The notes beneath the pieces are model-generated. The model was not told where the DNA came from and ran no database searches. It worked only from the letters and a program-made list of their open reading frames with translations. From Aphelocoma coerulescens (taxonomy: Eukaryota > Chordata > Aves > Passeriformes > Corvidae), in contig NW_027184085.1 in assembly GCF_041296385.1 (NCBI RefSeq), forward strand, positions 52,171,109-52,235,108: a stretch of DNA of 64,000 nt. The letters run 5' to 3'. Shown here piece by piece: positions 9,935-12,122 of this stretch (positions are counted from its first letter, which is position 1; each line of letters opens with the position of its first letter). A program made the translations under genes and the position numbers.

Positions 9935-10211
9935 TGTTGGGGTCCCTCCCCCGCGCCCTGTAGCCCTGAGGGAGGCACGGGGTTTCCCTGCCCCTGCTCA
10001 GCCTCGTTCCCCATTGGTTGGTTTGTGTTCCCCTGCGCGGGCAAAGCAGCTCGGGTCCTGTGACTGTGGCAGAGTCTCTCGGCAGATCCCGGCCATGCAG
10101 CTGGGGAAATAAACATCTCTGAAACATCTAGCAAGAATCCGTCCGTATATATTTCTTTTCCACGGGACTCCTGGTTGGATATAGGCGTGTTGCAGTATCC
10201 CCACTGCAACA
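9935..10211 (+). repeat. 5' LTR of the cold-shock-domain element (277 bp)
   Basis: Starts TGTTGGGG and ends CAACA. It differs from the 3' LTR at only three positions (C/T near 9990, A/G near 10098, G/T near 10175), about 1.1%. It carries an inverted CCAAT box (ATTGG, 10013-10017) as the likely U3 promoter element and AATAAA at 10108-10113 as the poly(A) signal. No clear TATA box precedes the poly(A) signal; a TATATA run lies after it at about 10145. The GC-rich U3 contrasts with the AT-rich flank. Confidence 0.95.
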
Positions 10212-10214
10212 TAA

Positions 10215-10232
10215 TGGTGGAGATTTGAGGGC
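10215..10232 (+). promoter_or_regulatory. Primer-binding-site candidate (tRNA-Ala-like)
   Basis: TGGTGGAGATTTGAGGGC begins 3 nt after the 5' LTR, the usual place for a retroviral primer-binding site. Its first ten bases fit the complement of the 3' end of vertebrate tRNA-Ala (acceptor ending ATCTCCACCA); the remaining eight fit poorly. The position is convincing and the tRNA identity is tentative. The mismatches may be decay, or the match may be chance. Confidence 0.5.
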
Positions 10233-10263
10233 AGAACGATCCCCGATCCCTAAGCGACTTTGT

Positions 10264-10269
10264 GTGAGT
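10264..10269 (+). promoter_or_regulatory. Candidate 5' splice donor in the leader
   Basis: GTGAGT followed by AA matches the intronic side of the vertebrate 5' splice consensus and sits in the leader between the primer-binding site and the Gag-like start, where retroviruses place their major splice donor. A spliced transcript could bypass the Gag start and deliver ribosomes to the cold-shock frame. I saw no equally good acceptor upstream of 10659, so use of this site is inference. Confidence 0.4.
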
Positions 10270-10329
10270 AAACCCTGGAAACTTTGGATTCTTCTTCTTG
10301 GTTTTGTTTTGCTATTCCATATCTAAACA

Positions 10330-11169
10330 ATGGAGGAACCGTGGGAAGACTCTTGGCTTTCAGAGCCGCATATGGACATTTATCTTAAACTTAAAATGAT
10401 TCTTGAACAACGGTTTGTAAATTTTAGCTTGATTCAAGCTCAGAAAGAACTGAAACACTTCCTGGCATGGTTGTTTAAGAACTTTTTCTATGTTTCTTGG
10501 GATTTAATTCTTACCAAGAGCTTTTGGAAGACCGTTTGGACCCAGTTAATATTTGAGTCAAAATATATGCCGATGGAAGAATATTTTCATGAATATTATT
10601 TAATTACCGAGACTGTTGAGCAACGTCAGCTGTGCCCTGGCGAAGGGAAGCCTGCCTCATGGACCGTGCGGCCTCGGCCACGTGCGCCGAGCGCTCTGCG
10701 AGCCGCAGCGAGACGGTTCCCGTGCGCGGGCGGAGCCACGCGAGCCGCAGTGTCGGTGGCGGAGCGAGGCGCGGCAGGAGCGGCGCGGCCCGGCAGTGCC
10801 CGCCCGGCCCCGCGCAGCGCGTGGTGGAGCGAGCCCCGAGAGCGCCCGAACGAGAGGGGCGGCGCGCGGGCGGCGGCTGGCGGCAGAGTGGAGCCGTGCC
10901 CAGCCGAAACGCGCGCTGGAACAGGGCACGGGGGGGTCACGCTTGGGGGCCTGGCCGAGATGCAGAGCCTGGCAGTGGCAATGCAGCTGCGACCAGAGGA
11001 GGCGACGCACGGAGAACGGAGCGGCGCGGCCCGGCCCGGCCCGTGCGGCCCCGAACACGACCCTGGGAAAAGCGCGCTGATAATTCCAACACGGGAGCGA
11101 CTGAAAGAGAGAGCAAAGACACAGCGAGACAGAAAACAGCAGCCACTCGGAAAAAGGAAAAGACCATAG
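10330..11169 (+). CDS. gag: Gag matrix-like fragment running into captured sequence (279 aa)
   Basis: The ATG at 10330 has a strong context (A at -3, G at +4) and is the first good start after the leader. Residues 1 to about 97 are rich in aromatic and hydrophobic helical residues, with a pattern (FLAWLFKNFF, then LTKSFWKTVW) that resembles the matrix domain of alpha/beta-like Gag proteins. It starts Met-Glu, so it lacks the Gly2 used for N-myristoylation; avian alpharetrovirus matrix also lacks it. From about residue 98 the frame enters the CpG-rich segment and becomes Ala/Pro/Arg-rich without recognisable capsid or nucleocapsid (no major homology region, no zinc knuckles), ending in a basic tail at a TAG (11167-11169). 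It overlaps the cold-shock frame for about 510 nt in another frame. The residues after about 97 may be incidental. Assignment to Gag is by pattern only. Confidence 0.6.
   Translation: MEEPWEDSWLSEPHMDIYLKLKMILEQRFVNFSLIQAQKELKHFLAWLFKNFFYVSWDLILTKSFWKTVWTQLIFESKYMPMEEYFHEYYLITETVEQRQLCPGEGKPASWTVRPRPRAPSALRAAARRFPCAGGATRAAVSVAERGAAGAARPGSARPAPRSAWWSEPRERPNERGGARAAAGGRVEPCPAETRAGTGHGGVTLGGLAEMQSLAVAMQLRPEEATHGERSGAARPGPCGPEHDPGKSALIIPTRERLKERAKTQRDRKQQPLGKRKRP
10626..11070 (+). other. CpG-rich segment between Gag fragment and cold-shock domain
   Basis: About 445 bp of very GC- and CpG-rich DNA in an AT-rich window, with sharp edges: the AT-rich Gag fragment on the left, and a shift to A-rich sequence before the cold-shock domain on the right. 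It is open in several frames on both strands because stop codons are rare in such composition. Inference: it is the 5' UTR and/or first coding exon of the captured transcript, since vertebrate Y-box genes start in CpG islands. Retention of so many CpGs in an inserted element supports recent integration or lack of methylation. It could instead be a viral leader or an unrelated host fragment. Confidence 0.6.
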
Positions 11170-11627
11170 TAGCTAAGATCTTAGGGACAGTGAAATGGTA
11201 TAATGTTAAACAAAACTATGGTTTTATAACAAGATGTGATAACCAGCAAGACATATTCGTGCATAGAACTGCTATTAAAAAGAATAACCCTGAAAAATGC
11301 ATCCCAAGCTTGGGAGATGGAGAGGTGGTGGAATTCAAAATCATACAAGGTAGAAAAGGGTTACAAGCATTGCAGGTCACTGGGCCTGATGGTGTTCCTG
11401 TAAAAGGCAGTATATATGCAAAAAATCGTAGTCATGTTAGACAATATCTCCATTGTAAACCCCCCCTACAGTCTCCCTTTCCTAATCCCACCTTTCCCTT
11501 TTACCCTATGTCCTATTACCCCCAGTGTATTCCCAATCCGTTTTTTCATCCATGGTTCCCCTCACAAACCCCTGCCTTTGCCAATTGTTTCCCCTACAAT
11601 TCCTCTCTGATGCCGATGGGGGGATGA
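10659..11627 (+). CDS. Y-box-family cold-shock domain protein, retroviral passenger (322 aa)
   Basis: Intact frame from the first ATG (10659) after an in-frame stop at 10617-10619 to a TGA at 11625-11627; it could also open at a GTG at 10632. Residues 1 to about 165 come from CpG-rich DNA and are Arg/Ala/Gly-rich with no known domain. Residues about 170-258 form a cold-shock domain of Y-box type: GTVKWYN, NYGFITR (RNP1-like), DIFVH (RNP2), AIKKNNP, GDGE.VEF and VTGPDGVPV. The nucleic-acid-contact residues Trp180, Phe189, Phe200 and His202 keep the spacing (9, 11, 2) of human YBX1 Trp65, Phe74, Phe85, His87. By eye the domain is about 60% identical to YBX1. The last 60 residues are Pro/Phe/Tyr/Asn-rich and unlike the alternating basic and acidic islands of Y-box proteins. 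Known: Y-box proteins bind single-stranded RNA/DNA, package mRNA and regulate translation. No introns, so it was captured as mRNA. The start has a weak context; splicing or reinitiation past the Gag start would be needed. Confidence 0.85.
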   Translation: MDRAASATCAERSASRSETVPVRGRSHASRSVGGGARRGRSGAARQCPPGPAQRVVERAPRAPEREGRRAGGGWRQSGAVPSRNARWNRARGGHAWGPGRDAEPGSGNAAATRGGDARRTERRGPARPVRPRTRPWEKRADNSNTGATERESKDTARQKTAATRKKEKTIVAKILGTVKWYNVKQNYGFITRCDNQQDIFVHRTAIKKNNPEKCIPSLGDGEVVEFKIIQGRKGLQALQVTGPDGVPVKGSIYAKNRSHVRQYLHCKPPLQSPFPNPTFPFYPMSYYPQCIPNPFFHPWFPSQTPAFANCFPYNSSLMPMGG

Positions 11628-11645
11628 AAAGGGGGAGGGAAGAAA
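11626..11645 (+). other. Uninterrupted 20-nt purine tract at the end of the cold-shock frame
   Basis: Twenty consecutive purines overlap the TGA stop of the cold-shock frame and include AAAAGGGGGAGGG. The composition is that of a retroviral polypurine tract, but it lies 200 bp upstream of the 3' LTR, so it is not the boundary tract. It may mark a second plus-strand priming site or be chance. Confidence 0.35.
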
Positions 11646-11845
11646 TTAAACCCTCTCCTGCCTCAGTTTCCCCACAAAGCATGCTCAGAGAGTTCTGTCT
11701 CCCTTCTGTCAGCCCTAAGATGTTCCACAGAATCTGTTTGGACATTTAAAGACTCAGGAGGGTGGCTTGTTTTGTTTTGAAACTGTTCTTGTTATGTTTA
11801 TCCAGTTGTCTTCATTCTCCTTTTATTAAAATAAAACGGGTGAGA
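11628..11845 (+). other. 3' untranslated region of the element with boundary polypurine tract
   Basis: Non-coding stretch between the cold-shock stop codon and the 3' LTR. Its last 18 nt (11828-11845) are purine-rich (15 of 18) and directly abut the LTR, the position of a polypurine tract; three pyrimidines make it degenerate. No env remnant is recognisable. Confidence 0.6.
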
Positions 11846-12122
11846 TGTTGGGGTCCCTCCCCCGCGCCCTGTAGCCCTGAGGGAGGCACGGGGTTTCCCT
11901 GTCCCTGCTCAGCCTCGTTCCCCATTGGTTGGTTTGTGTTCCCCTGCGCGGGCAAAGCAGCTCGGGTCCTGTGACTGTGGCAGAGTCTCTCGGCAGATCC
12001 CGGCCATGCGGCTGGGGAAATAAACATCTCTGAAACATCTAGCAAGAATCCGTCCGTATATATTTCTTTTCCACGGGACTCCTGGTTTGATATAGGCGTG
12101 TTGCAGTATCCCCACTGCAACA
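11846..12122 (+). repeat. 3' LTR of the cold-shock-domain element (277 bp)
   Basis: Direct copy of 9935-10211 at a constant offset of 1911 bp, with three mismatches and no indels. Inverted CCAAT at 11924-11928 and AATAAA at 12019-12024 are both retained. It is followed at once by the 3' copy of the 6-bp target duplication. Near identity of the LTRs means recent integration on a bird time scale, unless gene conversion has homogenised them. Confidence 0.95.

Follow-up and report, generated by a model that had tools for sequence, protein, structure and literature searches.

A young corvid endogenous retrovirus family whose open frame joins a Gag matrix-like domain to a Y-box cold-shock domain

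Captured host genes in retroviruses are known mostly from short-lived tumour viruses. In the acute transforming retroviruses the start of Gag is fused to a captured host sequence, the enzymes have been lost and a helper is needed. Here we describe a 2188-bp retroelement that lies in a 64,000-nucleotide stretch of the genome of Aphelocoma coerulescens (NCBI RefSeq assembly GCF_041296385.1, contig NW_027184085.1, positions 52,171,109 to 52,235,108 of the forward strand; hereafter the window) and that resembles these viruses in that a Gag start is joined to a captured host sequence and the enzymes are gone. It differs from them in that the captured part is a probably RNA-binding cold-shock domain (CSD) and in that the fusion occurs in the germ line, in many copies and in two genera, apparently under purifying selection. 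Gag-host fusions are already known; what appears to be new is a fusion of this kind that involves an RNA-binding domain, is present in many germ-line copies and is selected. An earlier, sequence-only reading of this locus held that no endogenous retrovirus (ERV) carrying a Y-box gene had been described. The literature searched does not contradict this, since no description of an ERV with a Y-box cold-shock gene was found in the open-access literature among the matches listed, although the subfamily of its long terminal repeats (LTRs) itself appears to have been published as corCorLTRK1b (see below).

The window element possesses LTRs of 277 bp that differ at 3 of the 277 positions (99% identity) and is flanked on both sides by a perfect 6-bp duplication, AGTTTT, so that both features claimed for it from the letters alone are present. 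When the internal region was searched against the genome that contains it (1.33 Gb in 660 contigs), 1860 candidates were obtained; 40 of these were scored, which is a lower bound for the copy number, and all 40 were 95-100% identical over at least 1620 of the 1634 bases. The sequences fetched comprised 34 dispersed rows and one stretch (L024) of a five-row tandem array, i.e., 36 sequences including the window and 35 without L024, which was excluded from the counts of open frames and target site duplications (TSDs). Seven of these 35 (L012, L031, L033, L038, L040, L042, and L043) were not delimited in a first pass; L031, L038, and L040 were later resolved and four remain. Exact 6-bp TSDs were observed in 30 of the 31 copies with both ends resolved, the remaining one differing at one base, although the best-matching ends were picked among candidates when the copies were delimited, which favours agreement of TSDs. 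Among the 30 exact TSDs, 29 different sequences occur, and the repeated one is explained by a second, 100% identical version of the window locus. The delimited copies have LTRs of 271-299 bp and a total length of 2.18-2.25 kb, and their paired LTRs with TG...CA ends are those of an LTR retroelement of the class II (ERVK) type. The distance between the two LTRs, determined for 28 copies, has a median of 0.011 and a range of 0-0.040, with three copies showing none; with the denominator that reproduces the date in the crow paper discussed below, this corresponds to approximately 0.34 million years for both the median copy and the window copy. Protein relatives of the family are also recorded for a second bird genus, Corvus. 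With many dispersed copies that have distinct TSDs, this is a family and not a single oddity, and the earlier expectation of a transposing family with a common Gag/CSD arrangement and differing target duplications was borne out. The window element belongs to a young, multi-copy, non-autonomous corvid ERV family.

Two loci of this set are arranged differently. The stretch L024 (G000:C4:114684058-114694057) represents a tandem array with five LTRs spaced 1907-1910 bp apart, the units of which share LTRs; its 10,000 bases contain three array rows fully and a fourth partly, and a further unit lies beyond. The window locus and no less than 1.2 kb of sequence to either side of it (8712-13345) recur with 100% identity in inverted orientation, approximately 640 kb away on the same contig (L001, G000:C39, match 52181320-52182953), which reflects either a recent duplication or an assembly duplication. 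That one contig contains this locus and its flanks in two identical versions might raise the suspicion that the entire arrangement is an assembly artefact or a chimera. However, the same arrangement occurs at many sites with differing TSDs and in proteins of Corvus moneduloides, and both primer sites of a crow insertion (see below) fall inside it, which makes an artefact exceedingly improbable.

We regard the window element as a non-autonomous derivative of an ERV, since autonomy would require a pol. Pfam detected no enzyme domains, and hence no pol of the class II type, in the two long frames of the window copy, its other frames having at most 154 codons; the earlier statement that retroviral enzymes are absent thus holds for the two long frames. 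A candidate primer binding site starts with TGGTGG in 27 of the 28 copies listed, and a purine-rich stretch precedes the 3' LTR.

The family encodes a fusion gene. In 21 of the 35 sequences, a single frame of 432-434 codons runs from a MEEPW start through the CSD to the end of the tail, and the order of parts in this open frame is a Gag matrix (MA)-like domain, an arginine-rich linker, a Y-box CSD and a proline/phenylalanine-rich (Pro/Phe) tail. An identical order is found in P0003 of Corvus moneduloides (440 residues, representing 24 member sequences) and in P0013 of Aphelocoma (437 residues). The linker contains 29-33 arginines, its net charge being +17 to +22, whereas that of the tail is +2 to +5 over 67-72 residues (five proteins measured). 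No capsid or nucleocapsid domain was detected by Pfam in the fusion proteins, as P0003, P0009, P0013, and P0014 matched nothing but the CSD above the cut-off. The window copy is a broken member of the family: its 279-codon frame also begins with MEEPW, but in this copy and its duplicate the MA part is out of frame with the cold-shock part; 12 further copies lack the single open frame for other reasons. The intact cold-shock frame that had been reported for it does exist, with 322 codons free of internal stops and a CSD match (PF00313) at E 1.8e-20.

The nature of the N-terminal part is less obvious. Pfam recognised no Gag in the N-terminus of the window copy or in the fusion proteins, and database searches with this N-terminus returned family members only. 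The same genome contains, however, a locus (L066) with a 717-codon open frame that includes Gag_p24 and whose start matches the MA part (hhalign, E 4e-6). When the open frames of 22 Gag-region loci were compared, about half of these loci not including their Gag start, L066 alone scored well (E 3e-4; the next had 0.06 and the best reversed sequence 2.6). Nine Gag starts of the L066 lineage, including L066 itself, match the MA profile with hmmsearch E-values of 2e-6 to 3e-5 (reversed controls 26-35), and a profile-profile comparison of the MA part with the Gag starts of this lineage gave 3.5e-7. These nine are mutually related and were found through the L066 lead, and do not represent nine independent tests. 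Two observations do not fit as well: the structure model of the MA part is helical and of intermediate confidence, with a predicted local distance difference test score (pLDDT) of 69, but has no significant match to solved or viral folds, and the MA part starts with MEE instead of the MG of its nine Gag relatives. An MG start is a myristoylation signal. On the whole, the profile matches support assignment of the N-terminal part as a Gag matrix-like domain, probably homologous to the Gag starts of the same genome. The earlier proposal of a Gag-like start thus finds support in Gag starts of its own genome, although Pfam is silent and in the window copy itself this start is out of frame with the cold-shock part. 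The Gag-bearing ERVs concerned (L066 and L082-L089) have a homologous Gag matrix start, and L066 and the frame of L085 contain Gag_p24 in frame, but blastn detected nothing similar to the LTR or leader of the element in the stretches that were fetched. The G000 contigs C518, C640, C26, C46, C507, C496, C27, C65, and C68, among others, also contain a gag-start family whose open frames have 844 or 867 codons; it forms same-strand runs with recurring spacing (e.g., 11,753 bases on C26; approximately 11,690 and 9,514 on C518) and identical scores, which possibly represent satellite-like ERV arrays.

For the cold-shock part of the window copy the best PDB matches are the CSDs of YBX2 and YBX1. The tryptophan, the two phenylalanines and the histidine, which we take to be the positions of the contact residues in YBX1, are invariant in all eight aligned family proteins. 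With these residues kept and an arginine-rich, positively charged linker next to them, RNA binding by the fusion protein is likely. Over 84 residues, the CSD is 0.56-0.64 identical to YBX proteins in the subfamily of the window copy and 0.63-0.71 in a second subfamily (overall 56-71% to YBX1, YBX2, and YBX3), values that do not single out YBX1, YBX2 or YBX3 as the donor. Outside this domain the likeness ends: alignments with the listed YBX proteins cover only approximately 26-36% of the window protein, and the family has a Pro/Phe tail instead of the charged C-terminal part of YBX, a matrix-like fusion and an uninterrupted frame. It also has six CSD positions of its own, at which 10-11 of 11 family proteins from both subfamilies agree with each other, against 104-106 of 106 host-type Y-box proteins (P0004 and P0010-P0012 were left out of this comparison). 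These six positions suggest that the CSD was captured once.

The second subfamily emerged from a second search, with the jay YBX3 protein, which gave 27,709 first-look candidates and a list of at least 136 places that favours copies most like YBX3. An open frame (length at least 430) is present in 109 of the 136 places listed and internal stops in eight. All 16 places that were fetched bear the LTR and the cold-shock sequence of the element, and most represent the second subfamily; among the first 10, two (L045 and L048) have the window-type MA part, at 90-91%. These first 10 resemble the window element in the LTR (78-92%, one weak extra match aside), in the 3' untranslated stretch (90-97%, all 10) and in the leader (73-95%, six of 10). 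A single frame from MA to CSD, with a length of 435-461 codons, occurs in nine of the 16 (L047, L051, L053, and L054-L059). TSDs could be judged on the five copies of the second subfamily with complete LTR ends, the others having an incomplete LTR alignment or lacking one LTR, and are exact in four (L051, L053, L054, and L055) and not in L059. The two subfamilies have also formed mosaics: Corvus protein P0014 combines the N-terminus of one with the cold-shock part of the other, and L053 the cold-shock part of one with the tail of the other, as would be expected from template switching between co-packaged RNAs. At L050, where no 5' LTR was found for the element copy, an open frame that by eye looks like an ERV Gag start lies beside this copy (L050:2611-3087); its match to the MA profile is not significant.

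Whether the fusion has been maintained by selection was judged mainly from the comparison of four of the 21 open window-type copies with three second-subfamily copies, using the Nei-Gojobori (NG86) ratio of nonsynonymous to synonymous rates (dN/dS). Between the subfamilies, dN/dS is 0.18-0.25 for the cold-shock part in all 12 comparisons and 0.19-0.25 for the MA part in nine of 12, the other three being saturated; the synonymous differences amount to 0.5-0.75 per site in MA and CSD and these values are, therefore, rough. Inside the second subfamily the CSD has a dN/dS of 0.15 in two of three comparisons, the third being without amino-acid change. Inside the window subfamily, the dN/dS of MA, CSD and tail taken together is 0.43 (p 0.002; 32 nonsynonymous against 26 synonymous changes), the linker being more loosely constrained (0.66-0.73); this test used the 21 open copies only, which slightly favours a low dN/dS, and skipped columns covered by fewer than 10 copies and variants that alter a codon at more than one position. 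In a neutral simulation none of 2000 frames stayed open. Because of the low dN/dS between subfamilies the fusion looks like a selected gene, and it looks as if the MA part and the CSD have both been kept by selection since the subfamilies split. Some results weigh against such a simple picture. Between subfamilies the tail has a dN/dS of 0.23-0.53, i.e., constraint is uneven, and inside the second subfamily the MA part reaches 0.25-0.61 (0.56-0.61 in two of three comparisons). Shared and private changes in the window subfamily are indistinguishable (p 0.78), and its private changes in the CSD alone have a dN/dS of 1.2 (13 changes). This neutral appearance of private CSD changes, and the 14 of 35 sequences, including the window copy, that are not in one frame, would be compatible with a processed Y-box pseudogene that landed in an ERV and was carried along as a passive passenger without function. 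A passenger would, however, hardly show a dN/dS of about 0.2 between subfamilies, a single frame in 21 of 35 sequences and open frames in most of the YBX3-search places listed, when no simulated neutral frame survived, and we consider this explanation very improbable. A family with a selected MA-CSD gene is, in contrast, a reading that we hold with high confidence.

The family probably also includes an insertion that has been described in crows. PMC7341801 reported a 2.25-kb LTR insertion of the subfamily corCorLTRK1b (ERVK), with an LTR of 296 bp, that is associated with lower NDP expression and with the plumage of the hooded crow. These dimensions are close to those in the jay, i.e., an LTR of 296 bp against 271-299 bp and a total of 2.25 kb against 2.18-2.25 kb. 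Its internal genotyping primer P_R_F_1 (reverse complement) has an exact match in the leader of seven of our 36 sequences, and no more than one mismatch in 28; all 36 contain a site for the second such primer, P_L_R_2, in the C-terminal coding part, where one or two positions differ. In 300 shuffles of each of these internal primers, fewer than five mismatches in the element were never obtained, and the four NDP flank primers have 5-9 mismatches in the window. PMC7341801 assigns the two internal primers to the LTR region, whereas here they are internal to the LTRs, in the leader and at the end of the gene. Their directions are those needed if the element is in inverted orientation with respect to the crow reference, and the printed products of 659 and 564 bp leave approximately 64 and 230 bp of flank, given an LTR of 296 bp. 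No mention of cold shock, Y-box, YBX, gag, an internal region or a non-autonomous nature was found in the main text of PMC7341801. The primer matches strongly indicate, but do not prove, that the crow NDP insertion belongs to this family.

How the element may have arisen and may spread can be outlined as follows. A spliced Y-box mRNA would have been acquired by an ancestral retrovirus whose Gag lineage persists in this genome, and the resulting fusion would have replaced the rest of gag as well as pol and env. The RNA would be transcribed from the LTR, its first long frame would be translated into the MA-linker-CSD protein, and the enzymes of another retrovirus would copy and integrate it. The CSD and the arginine-rich linker would bind the RNA of the element, as nucleocapsid does in other retroviruses, while the matrix part would tie the protein to Gag assembly or its cellular site, so that packaging or protection of this RNA would be favoured. 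Mobilisation in trans is, in our opinion, very probable. A partial search by blastn for the helper with a common LTR and leader that had been postulated before found none in 30 Gag-region loci (18 with a Gag start), the LTR reach of these stretches being unchecked; this counts against the proposed scheme, and dependence on a helper continues to be inferred. Since parts that probably bind RNA are attached to a matrix domain, the protein is most simply seen as one that handles or packages the RNA of the element. This is the likeliest role, which we propose tentatively and which falls somewhat short of being probable. A more specific version, in which the CSD replaced nucleocapsid and the MA-linker-CSD protein is a dedicated adaptor loading element RNA into the particles of other retroviruses, thereby enabling the spread in corvids and the plumage-linked crow insertion, seems rather unlikely as it stands.

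Y-box proteins mask mRNA and serve as translation factors, and some are specific to germ cells. The captured protein could, therefore, act on the host cell instead, e.g., by stabilising or masking germ-cell mRNA or by blunting silencing, and so aid survival of the element transcript. The good conservation of the domain and the low dN/dS of MA and CSD between subfamilies would suit such a role as well, but a host-directed factor would not need to be fused to a Gag matrix, and the conservation of this fusion points to a role linked to particles or Gag; we regard this option as unlikely. Gag-derived restriction genes are also known, and a Gag fragment consisting of the matrix only could disturb the assembly of related viruses, so that selection by the host on a domesticated gene family, e.g., one restricting related retroviruses, might be envisaged. 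However, young copies bearing LTRs and fresh TSDs are numerous and dispersed, which looks like spread at the level of the element, and domestication is thus quite improbable. On balance, we favour as the best overall explanation a non-autonomous family with a selected fusion gene that serves its own RNA, and consider it moderately probable.

The features of the element are compiled in Table 1. Elsewhere in the window, a long inverted-repeat pair (16637-17829 and 47888-49134) consists of pieces that are 80-98% complementary and approximately 30-32 kb apart, and a TAGAA-type microsatellite is present at 38497-38576.

Table 1. Features of the retroelement, in positions of the 64,000-nucleotide window.
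Feature	Position	Strand	Remarks
Target site duplication, left	9929..9934	.	AGTTTT
5' LTR	9935..10211	+	TG...CA; AATAAA at 10108-10113
Leader	10212..10329	+	118 bp; candidate primer binding site from 10215 (TGGTGGAGAT...)
Best match of primer P_R_F_1	10230-10249		In leader; one mismatch
Gag matrix (MA)-like domain	10330..10635	+	About 102 codons; profile match, Gag starts in own genome
279-codon open frame	10330..11169	+	MA-like domain first; does not reach cold-shock part in window copy
GC-rich stretch	10636..11160	+	Arginine-rich, linker-coding in sister copies
322-codon open frame	10659..11627	+	Cold-shock domain and Pro/Phe-rich tail
Cold-shock domain, Y-box (YBX) type	11184..11384	+	PF00313 match
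Best match of primer P_L_R_2	11547..11566	+	Two mismatches
3' untranslated stretch	11628..11833	+	90-97% alike in 10/10 second-search copies
Purine-rich stretch before 3' LTR	11834..11845	+	AAACGGGTGAGA; candidate polypurine tract
3' LTR	11846..12122	+	
Target site duplication, right	12123..12128	.	AGTTTT

In this corvid family, which has relatives in two genera, a germ-line element appears to have retained a captured RNA-binding domain as its sole long gene, and purifying selection appears to act on it. The means by which non-autonomous elements ensure that their RNA is packaged or survives can thus be tested in a concrete case. The family also supplies a likely coding identity for the class of elements behind the NDP insertion, which may, therefore, be re-examined for effects beyond those of its LTR.

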